From: Bacteroidales bacterium
GTDB lineage: Bacteria > Bacteroidota > Bacteroidia > Bacteroidales > F082
Length of the DNA stretch: 38,401 nucleotides
NCBI GenBank assembly: GCA_017965765.1
Contig: JAGCPJ010000045.1
Span: 1 to 38,401 of the forward strand
Direction of reading: 5' to 3'
This document shows positions 1 through 9,904 of this stretch, in pieces. Below the pieces are notes generated by a model. It searched no databases, was not told the DNA's origin, and saw only the letters and a list, made by a program, of their open reading frames with translations. The position numbers were made by a program, and so were the translations under genes. Each line of letters starts with the position of its first letter. The first letter of the stretch is position 1.

Positions 1-17
1 AAAAGCCCCAGAGGAAG

Positions 18-568
<551 letters not shown>

Positions 569-618
569 GATGTCGCGAAAATACTACATTTTTTGCAATG
601 CTAGCATTTCGCGACATC
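569..618 (-). terminator. Perfect 12-bp inverted repeat at the cas2 end (terminator or leader boundary)
   Basis: The arms GATGTCGCGAAA (569-580) and TTTCGCGACATC (607-618) are exact complements separated by 26 nt. The loop also contains a perfect 12-bp palindrome, AATGCTAGCATT (597-608), so two alternative folds compete. The right arm overlaps the cas2 stop codon. The simplest reading is a hairpin that ends the cas mRNA before the leader. There is no strong T-run after the stem on either strand, so an intrinsic terminator is not certain. Confidence 0.5.
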
Positions 619-907
619 AAATAATCAATTCCGAAGTGACATCAAAAGAAGTTTTCATTCCGATGTACTCCACCTTATTATTCCAATTATTTCCTAGAAA
701 ATAGAAACGGACACTGTCTTTTCCCTCATCAATTATTGACGATATTTTATCTCTCAAAACCGTAAATTGAGCTTCGGTCAACACACATTCAAAAACAGAG
801 TTTTGTACGCGTTGGCCATAATTCTGACACTCTTTGGCCACACGGCGCAACCGTCTTGCGCCACTAGGAGTCAAAGTCTCCACATCGTATGTTATCAAAA
901 CCATCAT
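617..907 (-). CDS. cas2: CRISPR-associated endonuclease Cas2 (type I-C)
   Basis: Cas2 forms the Cas1-Cas2 integrase that inserts new spacers at the leader end of the array. The 96-aa product has the family length. Its N-terminal strand VLITYDVET supplies the metal-site Asp of the ferredoxin-like fold. The following GARRLRRVAKECQNYGQRVQ and NSVFEC segments are typical of I-C Cas2 proteins. Two ATG codons are adjacent at the start, and either may be used. It is the last gene of the cas operon, 4 nt after cas1, and its stop lies in a perfect inverted repeat bordering the leader. Confidence 0.96.
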   Translation of the reverse strand: MMVLITYDVETLTPSGARRLRRVAKECQNYGQRVQNSVFECVLTEAQFTVLRDKISSIIDEGKDSVRFYFLGNNWNNKVEYIGMKTSFDVTSELII

Positions 908-911
908 AAGC

Positions 912-1934
912 TCAATGAATCAAAAAGACAGGATAATCATCAATGTCACCTCTGATTGCCCTCGCCAACAACAACGCTTGGACGTATGGCAACAATCCAA
1001 CAGGAATCTTTTCCTCCAAATAGGGATGGACTATCGTTTCCTTCTTTCTGTTTTGCCATGCCGTTAAAACTGTTTTGCGGCAATCATCAGTCATCAATAC
1101 CCCACTTTCACCTTGTGTCACAAAATCATTTGGCGCTACTTGTTTTCGGTTGATAAGCGAAAGCACAAGCCTATCGCCCAAATAGGCTCTCATTTCTTCC
1201 ATCAAGTCCAATGCCAATGAAGTACGTCCTGGGCGCAATGCATGCATAAAACCAACGTATGGATCAAGACCAACAGTTTCCAATGCTGCCGCTGTTTCAT
1301 TTGCCAACAATGTATACACAAAAGACAGCAAAGCATTCACTGCATCTTTTGGAGGACGCTTATTTCTCCCATGAAAAGGGAACTCATCTTTCCTCTGCAG
1401 CATTAGATTATGAAAAACGCCAAAATAAGTGTTCGCAGCATCTCCTTCCACCCCAATTAAACTTGAGACCTCTTTTGTGTTTAACGCCCACGACTTGCTC
1501 ACTTCCATTAATTTAATAGCCGCCCCCACTTCCCCATTACTTCCATTGTCCCGAATAAACCTTTGAAGGATTGTCCTATAGTTTTGAATCTTTCCCGCAA
1601 CAAACAATTTGGCATAGTGCAATGCTCGTTGCTTATCGTCTGCAATTTGATATTGAGTCTTTCTAAGCAACACATTACCATGGACTGGACCTTGAAAACG
1701 GCCAATAAACTTACCATTTGGCGACAAGAAAGACAATGCCACCCCATTATCGGCACACAACTTCATCAGTCCAGGACTTGCACCCACATATCCAAATGTC
1801 ACAATACCCTCAATATTGACAATTGGAATACGGAATTTCTCTACCTGATTGACAGATACCACCACATTCATTCCGTCCTTGCTCAAATAAGACTCGGGAG
1901 TAGTGACATACAAAACATTAAGGAGCTTCCTCAT
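912..1934 (-). CDS. cas1: CRISPR-associated integrase Cas1 (type I-C)
   Basis: Cas1 is the catalytic subunit of the spacer integrase. The 340-aa length is normal for I-C. The alpha-helical domain shows the expected metal ligands: Glu163 in IGVEGDAA, His231 in FMHALRPGR and Glu246 in LALDLMEEMR, with Asp243 alongside. The N-terminal beta domain (about 1-90) contains the IEGIVTFGYVGASP segment. The gene overlaps the end of cas4 by 17 bp, so Cas4 and Cas1 are probably translationally coupled. This fits their joint work in selecting and trimming prespacers. Nothing suggests inactivation. Confidence 0.97.
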   Translation of the reverse strand: MRKLLNVLYVTTPESYLSKDGMNVVVSVNQVEKFRIPIVNIEGIVTFGYVGASPGLMKLCADNGVALSFLSPNGKFIGRFQGPVHGNVLLRKTQYQIADDKQRALHYAKLFVAGKIQNYRTILQRFIRDNGSNGEVGAAIKLMEVSKSWALNTKEVSSLIGVEGDAANTYFGVFHNLMLQRKDEFPFHGRNKRPPKDAVNALLSFVYTLLANETAAALETVGLDPYVGFMHALRPGRTSLALDLMEEMRAYLGDRLVLSLINRKQVAPNDFVTQGESGVLMTDDCRKTVLTAWQNRKKETIVHPYLEEKIPVGLLPYVQALLLARAIRGDIDDYPVFLIH

Positions 1935-2589
1935 ATAGATTCTTTTTCAGGTAATAAGTTGCCAAAGGTTTGTTTCTCATATCGGGAAGACAAATATCCA
2001 ACAATGAACAATTGGTACATTTGCGGCTTTTTGATGCTTTTGGGACGACCCCAGAGCCATATACTCTATGCATTTCATCAGCATATTCTTGCGTCAACAG
2101 TCTTAACCTTTCGTCCACCTTGACCTCTTCCCGTCGTCGCGTTTCACCATAGAACAAATATCCACAATCTATCCTAATACCATGCATTTCCTCCAAGCAG
2201 ATGACTTGTGCGGCAAGTTGCACCTCATCCCTCTCATCGGGCTTCGCATGACCACGTTTGTATTCGACGGGATAAGGTTTCCAATAGCCAGGATATGACG
2301 GGTGCATTATGCAGTTGTTAGGACTATCAGAAGGATGCAGTTCTACCACATCTGTGAATCCATACAATCCCAATGCTTTAGATGAAATGGCAACCGAACG
2401 CAGCGACACAAACTCCCCATTCTTTTGTCTATAGAATGGGTCATCAGCTTGTTTGTGAAAAATTTGGCCCTCTGCCGTAAAGCGGTTTTCTGCCCAAACT
2501 TGTTCAATGTGAATCAATGCCCATTGTCGGGGACAGAACACAAAGTGCTGAATCCCCGACAACATGAGCATATCATCTTCGGCGTACAT
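1918..2589 (-). CDS. cas4: CRISPR-associated exonuclease Cas4
   Basis: Cas4 is a RecB-like Fe-S nuclease that trims prespacers and helps define PAM and orientation during adaptation. The 223-aa product has all expected elements: Cys19 (FCPRQW), His45 (FHKQAD), Asp80 (YGFTDVVE), Glu109 and Lys111 (VEYKRG), then Cys191, Cys194 and Cys200 completing the 4Fe-4S site with Cys19. It lies 4 nt after cas7 and overlaps cas1. The adaptation module thus appears intact. Confidence 0.96.
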   Translation of the reverse strand: MYAEDDMLMLSGIQHFVFCPRQWALIHIEQVWAENRFTAEGQIFHKQADDPFYRQKNGEFVSLRSVAISSKALGLYGFTDVVELHPSDSPNNCIMHPSYPGYWKPYPVEYKRGHAKPDERDEVQLAAQVICLEEMHGIRIDCGYLFYGETRRREEVKVDERLRLLTQEYADEMHRVYGSGVVPKASKSRKCTNCSLLDICLPDMRNKPLATYYLKKNLYEEAP

Positions 2590-2593
2590 CTTA

Positions 2594-3445
2594 TTAAATC
2601 AGATATTCCACATGTACTCCAACTGGCAAGGCACCCTCGTCAACCGTGACGGTGTAATCCTTAAACGAGCGCGGAGCATCTGAAATACACTTTTCCACTT
2701 TTACAAGGTCAAACAACTGATTTGCTGGAGCATTACCCAACAAGGAGTCATGCTTGAAAACAATCAGTTTCCGAGCACTCATCAATCCACGGGCTGCTGA
2801 ACGATCTACATCGAACATATTTTTCAAAGCTTCCCAGAACAAATCCAAGTCTTCTTCAGAGAAACCAGTCTGTTTGGCAAGGTTGGCGGAAACGAAACCG
2901 TGGCAAACATAAAGACCGTAGGGAACGGTGGCCTTGCGACCCATTGTGCGGTTATCGCCTCCTTGCTTTTCTGCTTCCTTTTCGGTAGCAACTGCCATTC
3001 TGGTAATAGAATGTTCCGCCGTGGCAATTGAATCAACGGAACGGGCAAATGTAAATTGGATAGGTCCACGCACTTGACCTGCATTCTTACCAGTTGACAT
3101 AACAGCACCGAATGTGCGAATGTCGTAATACGTTTTGCACATAACATCACGGGCTGCAGAAGTCTTATCTTTAGCATCTTTTACACTTTCTTCGTCATGT
3201 GCCTTGTCAATAAGTGTGTTTAGTACTGCTTTCTCCTTAATGAAAATATCATAGCCATCAGCACAATTTTTAGCCACCTGCACATAGTTGCGCACTTTGC
3301 GTTTGAGGCACACATCGGTCACAAGACCCATACCTGTTTCCGCGTCCACGCGAGGCAGATTGCCTGCATCAGGGTCGCCATTTGGATTACCATCCTGTAC
3401 ATCAAAGATGTAAACGAAATCGATTCTGTTTTTCAGTTCTGACAT
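2594..3445 (-). CDS. cas7: Cascade backbone protein Cas7 (Csd2, type I-C)
   Basis: Cas7 polymerises along the crRNA spacer to form the Cascade backbone. The 283-aa product has the Csd2-type N-terminus with [14 protein letters not shown] at residues 19-32, followed by [13 protein letters not shown]. It then has the [11 protein letters not shown] and [14 protein letters not shown] strands of the RRM-like core. Length is normal for Csd2. The start lies 21 nt after cas8c in an AT-rich gap, without a Shine-Dalgarno site, as is usual in this phylum. Confidence 0.96.
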
Positions 3446-3466: not shown

Positions 3467-3829
3467 TTATTCTTCAGTTTGTTCTTCTTTCTTGGTGTAA
3501 AACCATTGTGTTTGTTGATAATAGCCCACAAAGAACCTTCCTTGATCTTGCAGGTCAAGGTGAGCCGGGAAACCGTCGGGACTAATCTTATCAACGATTT
3601 CCTGTTTGATTTTCTCAAACCAAACCTTCCGCCCCTCATTCAGTTTCTCCGAATGGTGATAGGAGAGGTTGAGAATGGTTGCGAATACTGCCGCAGGTGT
3701 TGAACTTGCCGAGTTCATATACCGTTCGCGGATAGAATGTTGGTTGTTGGCCTCGTCTTGAATCTTGTCAAGCACGGCAAACAGACGGCCACAAAGATAG
3801 CCTTGGTTGGGGTTTTTGTCATCTAACAT
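3467..3829 (-). CDS. cas11c: Candidate internal Cas11c small subunit within cas8c
   Basis: In studied type I-C systems the Cas11 small subunit, about 120 aa, is made from an internal start in the 3' part of cas8c. Here an in-frame ATG is codon 448 of Cas8c, and starting there gives exactly 120 aa. On the coding strand it is preceded by the A-rich stretch CAAAAAATAAACGTT, the kind of AT-rich leader that serves for initiation in Bacteroidota. The product is the helical Csd1 C-terminus, beginning MLDDKNPNQGY. The idea that this start is used is inferred from family knowledge, position and upstream composition. Confidence 0.6.
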   Translation of the reverse strand: MLDDKNPNQGYLCGRLFAVLDKIQDEANNQHSIRERYMNSASSTPAAVFATILNLSYHHSEKLNEGRKVWFEKIKQEIVDKISPDGFPAHLDLQDQGRFFVGYYQQTQWFYTKKEEQTEE

Positions 3830-5170
3830 AACGTTTATTTTTTGTTGGTTATTAATTCTGTTCAAATATGCCTTGAGAATGGCTGCACGGGTGATGTTCA
3901 GGCTTTGCTCAGCACGTATACGACGTATGCAGCTCGCAAATAACGTATAAGGGTAAAGATTTCCTTGGAAAATACTTTTCACAACGGCTTCAGGTAAATT
4001 GGGGGTTGCTTCTGAGGATTTGCCACCCAATGTAACAGCCGCCAAAATCGAACGAAGCCCCATATAAGGTTTTTTCTCCTTGCGAGTGTCAGCAATTTCC
4101 ATATCCTCGAAATGGCGAAGAATAAGAGCAGCAAAGTCCTTCAATGGCAGTTCCGACCAATAGGTTACAGCAATTCGTGCCGAATTGGGTGCAAGCCCTA
4201 GAATGTAGAATTTGTCGTCAAGCGAAGTTCTTAAACTACCAGAGTAGATGGCATTAAACGTCTTTCTTACCTGTTCGACGTTTCTATTAGGGTCATCTTC
4301 CTGTTCAGTGAATCCAAACATATTGAAAATGCTTTCTTCTGCTTGTTTTCCTGCCTCGTCATCTTTGGACGCCCAGAAAAGGAATGTGCGGTTGCCGATC
4401 AAAAACTTGTTTCTCGAATCGGAACGCAACATGTGGTTCAATGCTGTCGTATACGCAAATTCGGCTTCTTCGCTGATTGGGGCATTAAAACCTTTCTCTT
4501 TTCCGTATGAATCATAGCCCGAATTCACCTGAAAAGCAACCAGTTTTGCTGTTGCCTGACTTCCTGGAATCATCGTTGCGGTTGTGGTTTCAACCACTCG
4601 TCCTCTTTGACCAGAAACCAAACAGATTTGTTCTCCTCCAAAAACATCATCATAGCCCAACAAATCCAGCAACTCCTCTTTCTCTGCTACAATTTTTGTA
4701 TCGCCCTCAATAAGAAAAGAGAAAGTTGAATACTTTTTATTCAGATTCTTCTCAATCTCTGGCCATAATGGATCTTTTTTCATTCTTTCCAAAACTTCTT
4801 TTATGTCATTTTGATAGAAAGAATACACGGCCTTCAAATCAGCGTTGTCCGGTGACGCTTCGTAAAGTGCCTGCACATTTTCCTTGAATGTTTCCAAACA
4901 CTTCTTTGGATCCCCTTTTTCAGAATAACCAAAAACATAGGCGCTATTATCATAAAGATAATTGGCTGCTGGAGCACTTGTACGGCCTACACTTTTTTTT
5001 ACCAAAAACTTTTGTGCCTGCTTTTTGTCTATTCTTCTGTCCTCAAACCTAACGAAATTGCCGTTCTTATCAATAACGATTAAGAAACCTATCTCTTTCA
5101 ACTCTCGTCCAAAAGCGGGAAGCGAATCCTTACTACGGTTGTAATACTCATATAACGCTTGCAGTATCAT
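3467..5170 (-). CDS. cas8c: Cascade large subunit Cas8c (Csd1)
   Basis: Cas8c recognises the PAM, helps hold the non-target strand and recruits Cas3. The 567-aa product is near the usual Csd1 length. It opens MILQALYEYYNR and carries the family segments AANYLYDNSAYVFGY (about 68-82) and NPNQGYLCGRLFAVLDKIQ (about 453-471). The start overlaps the cas5 stop by 4 bp (ATGA), indicating coupled translation. The last 120 codons appear to be translated separately as Cas11c; see the internal CDS. Confidence 0.96.
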   Translation of the reverse strand: MILQALYEYYNRSKDSLPAFGRELKEIGFLIVIDKNGNFVRFEDRRIDKKQAQKFLVKKSVGRTSAPAANYLYDNSAYVFGYSEKGDPKKCLETFKENVQALYEASPDNADLKAVYSFYQNDIKEVLERMKKDPLWPEIEKNLNKKYSTFSFLIEGDTKIVAEKEELLDLLGYDDVFGGEQICLVSGQRGRVVETTTATMIPGSQATAKLVAFQVNSGYDSYGKEKGFNAPISEEAEFAYTTALNHMLRSDSRNKFLIGNRTFLFWASKDDEAGKQAEESIFNMFGFTEQEDDPNRNVEQVRKTFNAIYSGSLRTSLDDKFYILGLAPNSARIAVTYWSELPLKDFAALILRHFEDMEIADTRKEKKPYMGLRSILAAVTLGGKSSEATPNLPEAVVKSIFQGNLYPYTLFASCIRRIRAEQSLNITRAAILKAYLNRINNQQKINVMLDDKNPNQGYLCGRLFAVLDKIQDEANNQHSIRERYMNSASSTPAAVFATILNLSYHHSEKLNEGRKVWFEKIKQEIVDKISPDGFPAHLDLQDQGRFFVGYYQQTQWFYTKKEEQTEE

Positions 5171-5865
5171 CTCAAAACCTCCTCACTGTTAATGGGTGGA
5201 ACAATAATCACTCCGTGCTCCATCTTGGTTCGATAGAACATTGCTTCCGGTTTTTCGAGATTGCCTTGGAAATCCATATCATAAAGCATAATGCCTAGAT
5301 CACGGCTTTCATCTATTGGGGGTGTCAAATCCTCTTGTTCGGGATTCACCAAACGGAACGAAGCCGAAAACTCGCGTGTGCCAAGATAAGGCTGATTGAA
5401 GCATTGCCCTTTGCTTGCCCGACGCTCGAACATCGCGTTATACTTGCCCGGATTCTCGTCTTTGCGAAGCAACTCTGCCTCTTCCTCGTCAATTCGGGCA
5501 TTCTTGGTCTCTTTCCGCTTCCATTGGGGAATAAACTCCAATTTCGCCCAAATCCGATAGCGGACATCCTGAAGCAGCAGCGAGTTCTTCTGTTGTCGTT
5601 TGTCCTCAATGAAAATCGGGTTCTTCGAGGCAACTGCACCCACCTCGTTTCGCCTTATAGTTGTCCATTTGATAGGGTTAAGCACCTCTATCTTCGTCAC
5701 CTGCCAACGTATGGCTGGCTTCCAGAAGACAGCCTCAAATACAGCCCGCGCTGCTGATGGTGTGATGACATCATAGCTTACCCGCTCCACTTTCAATTCT
5801 GGTCGGGTGAAGCACGCCATTGGGCCCCATACTTCCAAACAAAACTCTTTGTCGTGATATTCCAT
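5167..5865 (-). CDS. cas5c: crRNA-processing protein Cas5c (Cas5d, type I-C)
   Basis: In type I-C, Cas5 replaces Cas6: it cuts pre-crRNA within repeats and keeps the 5' handle. No cas6 is present in this operon, which fits. The 232-aa product has the I-C Cas5 segments AVFEAVFWKPAIRW (41-54), NPGKYNAMFERRASKGQC (138-155) and QPYLGTREFSASF (158-170). Compared from memory with Bacillus halodurans Cas5d (Tyr46, Lys116, His117), the likely equivalents here are Phe47, Lys141 and Tyr142, so only the lysine is identical. GKY at this place is, to my knowledge, common in I-C Cas5. The gene lies 3 nt after cas3 and overlaps cas8c by 4 bp. Confidence 0.95.
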   Translation of the reverse strand: MEYHDKEFCLEVWGPMACFTRPELKVERVSYDVITPSAARAVFEAVFWKPAIRWQVTKIEVLNPIKWTTIRRNEVGAVASKNPIFIEDKRQQKNSLLLQDVRYRIWAKLEFIPQWKRKETKNARIDEEEAELLRKDENPGKYNAMFERRASKGQCFNQPYLGTREFSASFRLVNPEQEDLTPPIDESRDLGIMLYDMDFQGNLEKPEAMFYRTKMEHGVIIVPPINSEEVLR

Positions 5866-5868
5866 ATT

Positions 5869-8019
5869 TTATATTATTAATGATTCTTCTAACCAGTAAT
5901 TATCTGTAATCAGTCCGACTTCTTTGTCGTAGAATATCGGGTCGCCGACCACATAAATACCCTCCAAAACCTCTTCAACGGCACCAGCATCCGTCAGTTT
6001 CTTCAAGTCATTATTCCTAACATTGACACTGTAATGCGACAATGCTTTCATCAGAGAATACGTAACACCTTCCTTCTTCAAACGTTCCACCAAATCCATG
6101 CTGTTTTTCCAGTTCACGATAACCGAAGTGGTGTAATCATCAATCAATTGAAACTCCGAAGCCGCAGTTTCAAACTGCATTTCGGGTTTATAGAGCAAAT
6201 CTTTTATGCTCGACTTGTCAAAACTATCAACCCGCGAATATAGCTGCCTGAAATAGGCCTCCATTGCTTCGGGTGAAAACCAATCAAATTCTTTTCCCAT
6301 TGCAAGACGAGCATTGTTGGTTTGTGTCATAAAGCCGGACGGAAGGGCCTTCTGTAAACTAAACACAAAAGTCTCGCCCATATCTAACCGTCCTTCGCGA
6401 TTGCATCTCCCCGCGGCTTGCAAAACAGAATCAAGACCCGCCTCCTGACGGAAAACAACTGGGAAGTCAATGTCAACACCCGCTTCTATCAACTGTGTGG
6501 CGACTACCCTTATAATGGAATTGTCAGGATTAATAAGTGCCGTTTTAACCTTCGCTATAGTATCCCTAACATGGTCAGGACACATCATCCTCGATAGATG
6601 CAGGCAAATGCCTTCTTTGGGCAAACGGGTGAAGATTTCCTTTGCATCTTTTCGCGTGTTTACAATACACAAAACTCGCTGATACTTCACTATTTGCTCT
6701 GCAATCTCATCATAGTTTTTACGCACTTCATCAAAGCGTATCTCAACACGGCGCAAACGATTGTGAAGGCTTGCTTCCTGGGGAATGATTTCTCGGATTT
6801 CAGAAAGACCTTCAAACGAAACAAACGGATTCGCACCCATTATCTCTCCAGACAAAACAGGCTGACTTGCCGTCGTAAACAAGATTGAAGTTCCGAATAC
6901 TCTTTTCAAAGTGTTAAAAGTATCGACAATAGGTTGTAAAAAGGCTATAGGCAAAGTTTGAACCTCGTCAAATATCAGGACACTTTTCGCAATATTATGC
7001 AACTTGCGACAATCGGAAGGCTTATTACTGAATAGGGATTCAAAAAACTGGACGTTGGTGGTTACTATGATAGGATAATCCCAGTTTTCAGTAGCCAGTT
7101 TCATTCTGCTCGCCAACTCTTTGTCGTTCACTTTAGAACTGTCAACATTGGAATGATGTTCCAACACGTTCTCTTCGCCGAAAATATTTCTTAACACACT
7201 CGCTGTCTGGGTAATGATACTCGTGTAAGGAATAGCGATGATAATGCGATTCAGATTGTTCCTGACAGCGTGTTTGATAGCCCAAAGCACAGATGAAAGT
7301 GTTTTGCCTCCGCCCGTCGGGACTGTCAAACTGAAAAAACCCGGCTTGTTATCGCTTTCTTTAATACAACATTGTTGGACTTCATTTCTGATCCTGTTCA
7401 CTTCTGTATCAGGCGCATTTTTCTTCAATCTGCTCAAATATGCCTCGAGTTTCTTTTCCAACATGGCCAAAGAATCATATTTCCCTCGCAGTTTACTTTG
7501 TTCGGGTTGCATGAAAGCCTCGGTGTCCAAATAATCGGCATCAACCAAACAACTATATAGCATCCGTTGTAAATGATGGATGTCTTGCGGCTTTCCAATA
7601 GGAGGAACGATTAATCGAGCTTCAATTCTCTCAACATTCACATCATTGGGCATCTCCGACTTCATCACTTCTTTCATATCGCCATCGTCATAGAGACCTC
7701 GGTGATGCCCCATAATAGCATTAATCATCAGTGGGTAGAACTTTGGAAATAATTGTTTGGCCATAATTGCCCCAACGTATGCATGTCTATAATCACCTTC
7801 GACCTTCACATTCGGATCCAATCCACTTTCTTTAATAATATGTTGTTGGAAAGCTCTTTTTTCCTTGCCCTTGTCGTGCAGCAGTCCTAAAACTCGCCCC
7901 CATTCTTCCATACCAAAAACGGTGGCAAATTGGGCAGCAAGTCTTGCCACTCCTTGCTGATGTTCTTCATTGGTCTGAACGGCAAAATTCTCTGGTCTAA
8001 TGTGTGATATAATATTCAT
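5869..8019 (-). CDS. cas3: CRISPR-associated helicase-nuclease Cas3
   Basis: Cas3 is recruited to Cascade-bound DNA, where it unwinds and degrades the target. The 716-aa product has an N-terminal HD nuclease domain with His20, His48-Asp49, His79 and His105-His106. It is followed by a superfamily 2 helicase: Walker A VPTGGGKTL (233-241), the DEAD-like box DEVQ (351-354) and motif VI QAAGRCNREG (534-543), with the QLIEAGVDIDFP segment just before it. HD and helicase motifs look intact, so interference should be functional. The start overlaps the stop of the upstream BRO/DinD-like gene by 4 bp (ATGA), which ties that gene into the operon. Confidence 0.96.
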   Translation of the reverse strand: MNIISHIRPENFAVQTNEEHQQGVARLAAQFATVFGMEEWGRVLGLLHDKGKEKRAFQQHIIKESGLDPNVKVEGDYRHAYVGAIMAKQLFPKFYPLMINAIMGHHRGLYDDGDMKEVMKSEMPNDVNVERIEARLIVPPIGKPQDIHHLQRMLYSCLVDADYLDTEAFMQPEQSKLRGKYDSLAMLEKKLEAYLSRLKKNAPDTEVNRIRNEVQQCCIKESDNKPGFFSLTVPTGGGKTLSSVLWAIKHAVRNNLNRIIIAIPYTSIITQTASVLRNIFGEENVLEHHSNVDSSKVNDKELASRMKLATENWDYPIIVTTNVQFFESLFSNKPSDCRKLHNIAKSVLIFDEVQTLPIAFLQPIVDTFNTLKRVFGTSILFTTASQPVLSGEIMGANPFVSFEGLSEIREIIPQEASLHNRLRRVEIRFDEVRKNYDEIAEQIVKYQRVLCIVNTRKDAKEIFTRLPKEGICLHLSRMMCPDHVRDTIAKVKTALINPDNSIIRVVATQLIEAGVDIDFPVVFRQEAGLDSVLQAAGRCNREGRLDMGETFVFSLQKALPSGFMTQTNNARLAMGKEFDWFSPEAMEAYFRQLYSRVDSFDKSSIKDLLYKPEMQFETAASEFQLIDDYTTSVIVNWKNSMDLVERLKKEGVTYSLMKALSHYSVNVRNNDLKKLTDAGAVEEVLEGIYVVGDPIFYDKEVGLITDNYWLEESLII

Positions 8020-8840
8020 TCCAATTCCAAATCGTTTTGTGTTGGCAGATAATTCTTTGACGTTGATACACTTCTGCCGAGTTCCTTTTCTGTTTCTTTC
8101 CGCGCTACACCGGCTACTTTTCCGCCACGCTTGGCAATCTTTCGGCTCTCTTCAAAGGTCTCAGGGTCTTCTTGTTGTGAAATCTCAGTTGTGACCCGTT
8201 CGCCAAGCATGGTGAAAATCAGTTCCAAGTCATCCATGTGGTCACGGAGATTCTGATTCTTCTTGGTCAAGCCTTTGTATGCTTTATATTCTGAAGGAGT
8301 CATTCCAAAAGTTGCCTTGGAAATCTCAGCAGTCAGAATGGCGTAATCCATTTCTGAGTCTATGCCACGTCTTTTCCACTCGTCAGTCAAGTTCTGACGG
8401 ATAGCCATACCCCGAAGTCGTTTGTCAATCCAATCCTTGGGATAGCCTTTCTTTTCGTAAAGCTCCTTCATGCGCTCTTGTGCCAATTCGGGATTTTCGA
8501 TTTCCAACATTCGCTCATAACCCACTTGGGCAAGCCACTGCTTGAATGGCTCCGCCTTAGGAGAGGGAATGGATTGGATGATACGGAACAGGCCTTTGAC
8601 ATTGGAGCAATTCATGCGTTGGGGGCCACCAGCAGTTTGCACAATAAGGGTAGGTACAATTTGTACCCACCCTTTGGCGAGTTCGGGATCGCGCAGTTTC
8701 ATTCGTTTGACATACTGTTTGGGATCCTTGCTGTCTGTCAATGCTTCCACAACGTCTTCAAGAACAAAATACCATTGCTCTTCTTCATCATTCCATACGG
8801 AACGGATTTTCTTATCTTGAAATAGCTTAATATTGGACAT
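8016..8840 (-). CDS. BRO-N / DinD-like protein heading the cas operon
   Basis: The product is 274 aa. Residues about 1-115 look like a BRO-N (phage antirepressor type) domain: IKLFQDKKIRSVWNDEEEQW, then YFVLEDVVEALTDS and a GLFRIIQSIPSPKAEPFKQW segment. The second half resembles E. coli DinD, also 274 aa: MDYAILTAEISKATFG, YKGLTKKNQNLRDHMDDLEL and FEESRKIAKRGGKVAG. DinD is SOS-induced and acts on RecA filaments; BRO-N proteins bind DNA. The stop overlaps the cas3 start by 4 bp and the promoter lies upstream of this gene, so it is the first gene of the CRISPR operon. Its function here is unknown. It could act as a regulator or antirepressor of the divergent WYL protein, or link the cas genes to DNA damage. 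Family call from memory, without a search. Confidence 0.8.
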   Translation of the reverse strand: MSNIKLFQDKKIRSVWNDEEEQWYFVLEDVVEALTDSKDPKQYVKRMKLRDPELAKGWVQIVPTLIVQTAGGPQRMNCSNVKGLFRIIQSIPSPKAEPFKQWLAQVGYERMLEIENPELAQERMKELYEKKGYPKDWIDKRLRGMAIRQNLTDEWKRRGIDSEMDYAILTAEISKATFGMTPSEYKAYKGLTKKNQNLRDHMDDLELIFTMLGERVTTEISQQEDPETFEESRKIAKRGGKVAGVARKETEKELGRSVSTSKNYLPTQNDLELE

Positions 8841-8863: not shown

Positions 8864-8886
8864 TTGTCTTTTCGACAACAAATATA
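8864..8886 (-). promoter_or_regulatory. cas operon promoter with overlapping palindrome
   Basis: On the minus strand 8886-8879 reads TATATTTG, a perfect TAnnTTTG -7 box, placing the start of transcription near 8872-8876 and a leader of about 35 nt before the BRO/DinD start at 8840. The inverted repeat TTGTC-N5-GACAA (8864-8878) covers that start point, a classic repressor position. The motif TTTCGA also occurs twice in direct orientation (8858-8863 and 8870-8875). The -7 box is read directly; operator function is inferred. Confidence 0.65.
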
Positions 8887-8940
8887 ATAATAGAAATTCA
8901 TATCGCCAACTGTTTTTCTATGACAAAAATACACCCAAGC

Positions 8941-8959
8941 TGTTTCAAAACATGAAACA
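8941..8959. promoter_or_regulatory. Palindromic candidate operator in the WYL promoter
   Basis: TGTTTCA-N5-TGAAACA is a perfect 7+7 inverted repeat. It lies about 17 bp upstream of the -7 box of the WYL gene, over its -33 region, and about 55 bp upstream of the cas operon -7 box. WYL regulators of defence loci (BrxR and CapW types) bind such inverted repeats near their own gene, so autoregulation is the natural guess. It is not the same sequence as the palindrome at 8864-8878. Confidence 0.55.
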
Positions 8960-8975
8960 CCTATAATTTTTTTTA

Positions 8976-8983
8976 TATTTTTG
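8976..8983 (+). promoter_or_regulatory. -7 promoter box of the WYL gene
   Basis: TATTTTTG followed by CAG matches the Bacteroidota -7 element TAnnTTTG. It lies 15 nt before the ATG at 8999, giving a leader of roughly 10 nt. Because the box covers the TTG at 8981, that codon cannot be the translation start. Confidence 0.7.
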
Positions 8984-8998
8984 CAGAAAAAAGCAAAA

Positions 8999-9904
8999 AT
9001 GAAAAAAACCGATACCTTTAGGCAATATATTTGGCTTGTCCACACAATCCAGCGTGCAAGGCGGATCAGTTATAGTAACATCAAACGCCTTTGGATAGAA
9101 AATGACTTGAATGATGGTAAACCTTTGACGCGCACCACCTTCTACCGCCTTCGCCAAGCCATTGACGACATGTTCGGTATCTGCATTGAATGTGACAACC
9201 GGAACCAATACTACATCACCAACCCAGAAACGCTCAAAGACAACTCCACCCCAACCTGGATGCTGCAAACACTCACCGTCAACAACGTGCTTTTCGATAG
9301 CCTATCCATCAAGGATCGACTCGTTCTGGAAAAGATTCCCAAAGGGATGGAATACCTTGATACCATTATCACAGCCATCAAAAGTCACCAGACCCTACTT
9401 ATGGGATACCAGAAATTTACCGATACTAAGCCATACACCACACGCATTGAACCTTATTGTCTAAAACTCTTCCATCAACGCTGGTACCTGCTCGGCAAAA
9501 GCGAAAGAAAAAGCTACAAATTGGCCATCTACGCTCTCGATCGCATGACCGAACTCAAAGAAACAGAATCCACCTACATCTTAGATCCTGATTTCGATGC
9601 CGAGACCTTTTTCAACAACTATTTCGGTGTTTTCATCGGCGAAGAAATAAAACCTGCACACATCGTCCTTCGTGCTTACGGAAAAATGATTCCGCTACTT
9701 CGAACCCTTCCCAAACACCAATCACAAAAGGAAATCAACACCCAGGCCAACTTTTCCGATTTTGAATACTATATCGCCCCAACCCTCGATTTCAAACAAG
9801 AAATCCTCAAAGAAGGACCCGACTTGGAAGTGCTTGAACCTGAATCACTACGCAACGAAATCGTTGAATCACTGATGAAAACCATTCAACACTATCAACC
9901 ATAA
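8999..9904 (+). CDS. WYL-domain transcriptional regulator beside the cas operon
   Basis: The 301-aa product has the layout of WYL regulators. An N-terminal winged-helix region (about 1-75, with RRISYSNIKRLW and TRTTFYRLRQAIDDMFG) is followed by a WYL domain (about 124-190) carrying the literal Trp162-Tyr163-Leu164 in HQRWYLLGK. A C-terminal WCX-like part follows. WYL proteins sense nucleic-acid or nucleotide ligands and often control CRISPR, BREX and CBASS loci. This gene is divergent from the cas operon, with a 158-nt gap holding two palindromes and two facing promoters. I chose ATG 8999 over an upstream TTG (8981) because the TTG lies inside the -7 box. The likely role is repressor of the cas operon and of itself. 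Confidence 0.88.
   Translation: MKKTDTFRQYIWLVHTIQRARRISYSNIKRLWIENDLNDGKPLTRTTFYRLRQAIDDMFGICIECDNRNQYYITNPETLKDNSTPTWMLQTLTVNNVLFDSLSIKDRLVLEKIPKGMEYLDTIITAIKSHQTLLMGYQKFTDTKPYTTRIEPYCLKLFHQRWYLLGKSERKSYKLAIYALDRMTELKETESTYILDPDFDAETFFNNYFGVFIGEEIKPAHIVLRAYGKMIPLLRTLPKHQSQKEINTQANFSDFEYYIAPTLDFKQEILKEGPDLEVLEPESLRNEIVESLMKTIQHYQP

Follow-up and report, generated by a model that had tools for sequence, protein, structure and literature searches.

S13, a Bro-N gene found beside the nuclease genes of type I-C, II and V-A CRISPR-Cas operons, and its possible action on cut DNA

The S13 gene and its operon

The window analyzed here is a 38,401 nucleotide (nt) stretch from a Bacteroidales bacterium (lineage F082; assembly GCA_017965765.1, contig JAGCPJ010000045.1, positions 1 to 38,401). 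It carries a type I-C operon of clustered regularly interspaced short palindromic repeats (CRISPR) and cas genes, and this operon is opened by a gene for a 274 amino acid (aa) Bro-N protein. Gene and protein are both called S13 here, after the PADLOC candidate PDC-S13. The S13 gene is situated at 8016..8840 on the minus strand and encodes a Bro-N domain, aa positions 11–105, followed by a helical C-terminal part with a DinD-like stretch. Close homologues of S13 are found beside the nuclease genes of type II and type V-A systems as well.

The first-pass annotation, made from the sequence alone, had described a 274 aa gene at the head of the cas operon with a stop codon that overlaps the cas3 start. 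This is borne out: the open reading frame ends in TGA (8018–8016) and the cas3 ATG occupies 8019–8017, giving an ATGA overlap at 8016..8019 on the minus strand, a strand left unstated in that annotation. The operon promoter was also placed upstream of S13, and promoter-like TAnnTTTG boxes are found 83 and 38 bases before the S13 ATG; TAnnTTTG is the Bacteroidota promoter box.

The I-C system is complete in the window and runs S13-cas3-cas5c-cas8c-cas7c-cas4-cas1-cas2, all on the minus strand. Profile matches identify cas3 (5869..8019; HD and helicase domains, PADLOC Cas3c E-value = 2.7e-211), cas5c (5167..5865) and cas8c/csd1 (3467..5170); PADLOC identifies cas7c (2594..3445), cas4 (1918..2589), cas1 (912..1934) and cas2 (617..907). 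A CRISPR array follows at 1..450 with seven repeat copies spaced 64–70 nt apart, possibly cut since the window begins at contig base 1. S13 is the sole match at E ≤ 0.001 within its own genome, the assembly of which is 76% complete.

Genomic setting of S13 homologues

Two sets of homologues were compared. The close set consists of the 80 closest homologues, 65–85% identical to the window S13, at loci that are not independent of one another. The comparison set was drawn from the order and family samples (295 and 100 genomes) and consists of 50 further homologues, mostly more distant (43–68%), whose flanks were read to 1.5 kb at most and less where a contig ended. The 80 loci were read by gene calling and with profiles grown from reference proteins, because tblastn with the I-C Cas1 of the window missed type II Cas1 and single-pass phmmer missed many Cas9 proteins. 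The Cas9, Cas12a, Cas1, Cas2 and Cas4 seeds were identified by NCBIfam: Cas9 and type II Cas1 in locus L072, Cas2 in L102, and Cas12a, type V Cas4, type V Cas1 and Cas2 in L086.

CRISPR loci hold 54 of the 80 closest homologues: 44 are type II, nine are type V-A and one is type I-C. The type II label includes L091, which has only a 41 aa Cas9 remnant, and L080, L093, L098 and L143, where a type II cas1 is present and the nuclease was not seen. All of cas9, S13, cas1 and cas2 are seen in 36 of the 44 type II loci. Both cas12a and cas1 are seen in seven of the nine V-A loci, and cas4 is likewise present in seven. The usual gene orders are cas9-S13-cas1-cas2 and cas12a-S13-cas4-cas1-cas2. No cas gene was found within flanks of up to 1.5 kb in any of the 50 comparison homologues (54/80 vs 0/50, Fisher p = 5e-17, a value that is overstated because the loci are related). 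The CRISPR-linked sequences are all 69–85% identical to the window protein, thus it is one subfamily that carries the link to CRISPR.

The nuclease gene is seen in 50 of the 54 linked loci and is upstream of S13 in 49 of these. The gap between nuclease and S13 is 20 bp or less in 22 of 34 loci measured, and that between S13 and cas1 is 30 bp or less in 29 of 31. CRISPR arrays were detected in 31/44 type II loci, 7/9 type V loci, 0/1 I-C locus and 1/26 unlinked loci. L129 (cas12a-S13-array) and L100 (cas9-S13) keep S13 beside the nuclease gene in the absence of any cas1 match at the locus. In L129 (10001–13524) the array behind cas12a and S13 has about 39 repeats.

The type II hosts are Bacteroidales, other Bacteroidota and one Eubacteriales assembly. 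The V-A hosts are Treponema, another spirochaete, Prolixibacteraceae and Bacteroidales. Cultured hosts in the set are Bacteroides propionicigenes NSJ-90 (L125) and Bacteroides muris NM69_E16B (L119). S13 shows recurrent placement inside CRISPR operons in separate lineages and in three types, which is the pattern by which an accessory gene is recognized, and the association of S13 with CRISPR is almost certainly real. The first-pass annotation had proposed an accessory component of the CRISPR system that its standard definition does not include, and the 54 of 80 nearest homologues in CRISPR loci support this.

Two other classes of setting were considered. A prophage or antirepressor gene is rejected: S13 relatives number two among viral contigs, and four phage and ten plasmid records (these 14 all <60% identical), compared with at least 510 stretches in a much larger genome collection, which gives little sign of a prophage gene. 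Homologues mainly in prophages, an outcome that the first-pass annotation had set against its own proposal, is not what the two viral contigs and four phage records show. One viral contig (L225, 5968–11147) has three S13-like open reading frames in a row, with a Pfam Bro-N match that is above the cut-off in one, just below it in another and absent in the third.

A general restriction-modification (R-M) companion is rejected as well. Of 47 genes directly next to S13 in the 26 unlinked close loci (a 2688 aa neighbour in L127 was left out), only a few give R-M matches, and such matches also occur among 37 control genes taken from these loci. R-M models match single members of the 90 neighbours of the 50 comparison loci, among the matches listed. 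Single R-M settings are HsdR in L009, type III in L027 and L111, type IIG in L074 and L134, and a methylase in L101. L134 (7958–18882), a Leptospiraceae assembly, displays a different defence setting with a row of helicase, S13, type IIG enzyme and PDC-S68. Two S13 genes close by on one strand are found in L137, L148 and L012, partly broken in the last. In G012:C280 (137–5469) an S13 of 43% identity, outside the CRISPR-linked subfamily, is divergent from a Cas9 match about 0.6 kb away.

S13 and type I-C cas3

The first-pass annotation had expected homologues to be enriched beside I-C cas3. In the order sample, an S13 homologue is present in 93 of 295 genomes and Cas8c in 10, and among the matches listed the two occur together only in the window. 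Two sets of loci with an I-C-like cas3 were searched: 10 further Cas8c loci with cas3 (L152–L162 less L157) and, from a phylum sample of 395 genomes, 29 more loci centred on the best cas3 matches. The latter have a cas5 match in 26 of 29. Genome G105 is common to both sets, leaving 38 distinct loci, of which at least one (L214) ends at a contig edge. S13 was found upstream of cas3 in 0 of these 38 other loci. Taken literally, the count that had been proposed speaks against a specialization for type I-C, and S13 is, by these loci, no core component present in most I-C operons; the main hosts are type II and V-A.

One further I-C case, L096, comes from the genome collection. Here an open-ended cas3 fragment of 67 codons begins 60 bases after S13 at the contig end; it is 70% identical over 63 aa, and the assignment of L096 to type I-C rests on it. 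The same assembly has another cas3 on contig C87.

The S13 protein

The first-pass label of BRO-N/DinD-like stands in its first half. Pfam PF02498 (Bro-N) matches residues 11–105 with an E-value of 1.1e-13 and 52.1 bits against a gathering score of 25.6, which places S13 in the Bro-N family. In its second half the label is weak, as S13 scores 22.5 bits against a cut-off of 242 for NCBIfam PRK11525, the DinD equivalog. E. coli DinD is also 274 aa long, has a Bro-N domain (E-value = 1.5e-7) and has a C-terminal stretch in common with S13 (KKNQ...DHM). Thus S13 displays the DinD-type layout of Bro-N plus DinD C-terminal stretch in about 274 aa, with weak similarity.

PADLOC PDC-S13 (PDLC04920) matches S13 over its full length (residues 2–269 to positions 5–271 of 286, E-value = 2.7e-113), and phrog_15286 is the same family by sequence (E-value = 1.9e-93). 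No Ant or KilA C-terminal domain was detected: Pfam at E-values up to 1 yields Bro-N and a non-significant ASL_C only. Named Ant PHROGs cover residues 1–157 at most, most ending near 106. The strongest conservation is at residues 81–157 and 197–228.

An AlphaFold model of S13 (mean predicted local distance difference test score 89.2, predicted template modelling score 0.73) shows an N-terminal part of mixed structure and, C-terminally, a long helical part. A Foldseek search of the PDB with this one model gave six chains as the only matches below an E-value of 0.001, and all are Deinococcus DdrC (best E-value = 1.1e-5, probability 1.00). DdrC binds and stabilizes broken DNA and compacts DNA.

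Trees, selection and transfer

The S13 tree contains 133 proteins; L002, L003, L004 and L007, which repeat other contigs, and the short L025 and L028 were left out, and the identical pairs L043/L085 and L044/L112 were both retained. Context labels require nine changes on this tree compared with a mean of 47.8 when shuffled. The window S13 clusters with the type II loci L072, L073 and L089 and with L074, in which S13 adjoins a type IIG R-M gene (Shimodaira-Hasegawa-like approximate likelihood ratio test 100). The L096 S13 falls in a different well supported (starred) set that is mostly type II. A single clade of the window and L096 is rejected by the approximately unbiased test (p = 0.005; quick tree of 68 sequences, on which the labels need 11 changes), the I-C pair having been chosen after the first tree and the I-C label itself coming from gene context. 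Two separate entries of S13 into I-C operons, from type II loci, would most simply explain these trees.

S13-bearing Cas9 proteins are found in very divergent Cas9 lineages, with 12 changes, at least nine of them forced by starred branches, and a shuffled mean of 20.1. The Cas9 tree is a FastTree with long-branch warnings and so only its coarse message is used. As the S13 tree parts the two I-C cases and the Cas9 partners are divergent, S13 appears to have moved between CRISPR types. The ratio of nonsynonymous to synonymous substitutions (dN/dS) is 0.03–0.09 in nine of 15 S13 pairs, the other six being saturated and dS being high in several; S13 is by this measure under purifying selection.

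Cas9 is present in 30 of the 100 genomes of the family sample, and S13 adjoins it in two (L164 and L176). In L177, a 113-codon S13 remnant lies between cas9 and cas1, and in the S13-less L170, cas9 and cas1 directly overlap. L091 has kept S13 with the 41 aa Cas9 remnant. L077 (4000–10837) carries an orphan S13 at a site syntenic with the window: its signal peptidase and FtsK are 88% and 77% identical, and two further genes examined beyond them are present as well. This looks like an orphan S13 at the window's own chromosomal site.

Promoter region and WYL regulator

Divergent from S13 is a regulator gene with WYL and WCX domains (8981..9904, plus strand), with a TTG at 8981 or an ATG at 8999 as start, the true start probably being the latter. 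Between the two genes is the palindrome TGTTTCA-N5-TGAAACA (8941..8959), with a chance expectation of 0.02 allowing up to one mismatch, which is probably the WYL operator. Under the TAnnTTTG box model, TATTTTTG at 8924..8931 (minus strand) is the promoter-like box that faces S13-cas3, TATATTTG at 8879..8886 (minus strand) is a second one facing S13, and TATTTTTG is found again at 8976..8983 (plus strand) facing the WYL gene. In the window, S13 thus has the palindrome and a WYL-flanked promoter on one side and cas3 on the other.

In L161 and L162, same-genus I-C loci that have no S13, WYL and cas3 are divergent and 80 and 107 bases apart. The palindrome lies between WYL and the cas side in all three I-C loci, and the same palindrome lies between WYL and cas9 in the S13-bearing type II loci L078, L083 and L090. 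It occurs in seven of 193 loci, the seventh being L100, where it is in a different place. In all six WYL loci the nearest TAnnTTTG boxes face outwards, 10–11 bases from the palindrome on the cas side and 15–17 on the WYL side; further boxes exist. The same module of regulator and palindrome seems to be in use at I-C and at type II operons. The Cas9 proteins of L078, L083 and L090 differ widely, and those of L078 and L090 are in separate parts of the Cas9 tree. With a fixed geometry before both I-C genes and widely differing Cas9 genes, the regulator seems to have stayed in place while effectors were exchanged behind it.

A WYL gene was detected in 5/54 CRISPR-linked S13 loci, where contig ends and the window-based profile can miss some, and in 5/29 S13-less cas3 loci.

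Proposed function and alternatives

We tentatively propose, at somewhat less than even confidence, that DNA-cutting CRISPR-Cas systems have in S13 a portable accessory protein, one which binds broken DNA and blocks its repair. The gene would be inserted beside an interference nuclease gene (cas9, cas12a or cas3), with ends that often overlap or nearly touch, so that S13 is probably made together with the nuclease. The protein would bind the DNA ends or single-stranded DNA left by the nuclease through its Bro-N and helical parts, as DdrC does, and by holding or covering the broken target could leave RecA-type recombination unable to restore it. The target, rather than the host chromosome, would be the main substrate. 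Binding of cut DNA against RecA repair is favoured because the host systems share a DNA-breaking nuclease, S13 stays beside that nuclease in I-C, L129 and L100, the model is DdrC-like and there is a link to DinD. The DdrC-like model and the distant DinD likeness likewise favour a role on broken DNA or RecA intermediates.

Several results weigh against this proposal. No cas gene was detected within 1.5 kb of S13 in 26 of the 80 close loci, and cas1 was searched for without a match in the genomes that carry L074, L077, L091 and L092; S13 without cas neighbours, or without cas1 in the genome, seems useful alone. Most CRISPR loci in related hosts have no S13. In the order sample it is beside the effector in at least 2 of 124 Cas9 genomes, at least 1 of 13 Cas12a genomes and at least 1 of 10 Cas8c genomes (the window itself), among the matches listed and read by eye, with contig breaks hiding pairs; in the family sample the figure is 2 of 30 Cas9-bearing genomes plus one remnant. 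The likeness to DinD is weak, 27% identity over 94 aa with an hhalign probability of 53. The DdrC match has TM-scores of 0.32–0.42 (by query length), a root mean square deviation of 9.5–15.2 and an identity of 13–15%, and an S13 profile gave zero matches to PDB sequences at E-values up to 10, DdrC included.

S13 might instead assist in adaptation and be the functional counterpart of Csn2 or Cas4, both of which have roles there. It would catch the DNA ends made by the effector and pass them to Cas1-Cas2. This fits its usual position in type II and V-A loci, where the nuclease gene adjoins it on one side and cas1 or cas4 on the other and the gap to cas1 is short in 29 of 31; the DNA-end binding that the DdrC-like fold suggests fits as well. 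We consider this unlikely, however, as in the I-C operon S13 is at the opposite end from cas4-cas1-cas2, cas4 is already present in seven of the nine V-A loci with S13, and S13 is retained in L129 and L100, loci in which cas1 was looked for and not found. S13 could also be a stand-alone defence or stress gene, as in the PADLOC candidate, that hitch-hikes in these operons for its expression without a functional tie to CRISPR. The 26 close and all 50 other homologues with no cas gene detected nearby, the S13 genes in R-M loci, and the dN/dS of 0.044 between the orphan L077 and the CRISPR-linked L083 would agree with this. It is nevertheless improbable in our view: S13 takes up its position next to the nuclease with divergent Cas9 lineages, in V-A and in I-C, and R-M genes are rare among its neighbours, at a level not clearly higher than for control genes, which makes the CRISPR tie particular to a subfamily.

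Host protection, in which S13 stabilizes or helps mend chromosomal breaks that arise from self-targeting or acquisition errors, draws on the same fold match, DdrC being a break-stabilizing and DNA-compacting factor. The results apply alike to host and invader DNA, and we rate this as quite improbable. A role as transcription regulator of the cas operon, of the Bro-N antirepressor type, or as antagonist of the WYL repressor is very unlikely. Bro-N domains do occur in phage antirepressors (PHROG matches), and in the window the WYL gene and conserved palindrome adjoin S13. However, WYL was found in few linked loci (5/54), L161 and L162 keep WYL and palindrome without S13, and the nuclease gene precedes S13 in 49 of 50 loci. 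The antagonism toward the divergent WYL repressor suggested in the first-pass annotation is accordingly disfavoured on the first two counts, and its suggestion that S13 links DNA damage to CRISPR expression is disfavoured on the third.

To return to the proposed binding of cut DNA, one subfamily common to I-C, II and V-A and situated beside the nuclease points to a step shared by the DNA-cutting types, after cleavage. S13 would offer a direct handle on the fate of phage DNA that has been cut and that the cell or the phage is able to repair. In its widest form, a possible but doubtful one, S13 would be an exchangeable third arm of DNA-cutting CRISPR immunity, a DdrC/DinD-like break binder that moves among operons with Cas9, Cas12a and Cas3 and keeps recombination from repairing the cut target. 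CRISPR immunity would then include an active anti-repair step.

Comparison with known systems

E. coli DinD is SOS-induced through LexA. It resembles S13 in its length of 274 aa, N-terminal Bro-N domain and C-terminal stretch but not in overall sequence, and dinD is situated between yicC and yicG with no cas gene in the 10 kb around it, whereas the window S13 is in an I-C operon. DinD is named among regulators that act on the RecA filament (PMC4457935). Deinococcus radiodurans DdrC gave the only PDB fold matches to the S13 model below an E-value of 0.001 and differs in its low identity, low whole-chain TM-score and lack of a sequence match. Phage Bro-N antirepressors (Ant) share the N-terminal Bro-N domain, but Ant matches stop by residue 157 and few S13 relatives are found in phage collections. 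PDC-S13 and phrog_15286 are the same family as S13, but are models without stated function, and PDC-S13 has no CRISPR label in PADLOC output.

For CapW, a palindrome in the promoter region is described (PMC9122588). With a divergent WYL-WCX gene and a promoter palindrome, the CapW and BrxR regulators resemble the regulator beside S13 and not S13 itself, the operator in the window being a predicted one.

Among the papers listed in literature searches, titles and abstract openings showed no tie of DinD or Bro-N proteins to CRISPR operons; a gene-neighbourhood survey or the tables of DinD-RecA or DdrC papers may hold an earlier mention. WYL1 of type VI-D, Csn2 and Cas4 are, like S13, accessory genes co-encoded with a CRISPR effector, and to our knowledge they are unrelated to it in sequence. 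Accessory CRISPR genes are usually confined to one type. The CRISPR-linked S13 subfamily described here is unusual among them in that it is common to three types, I-C, II and V-A.

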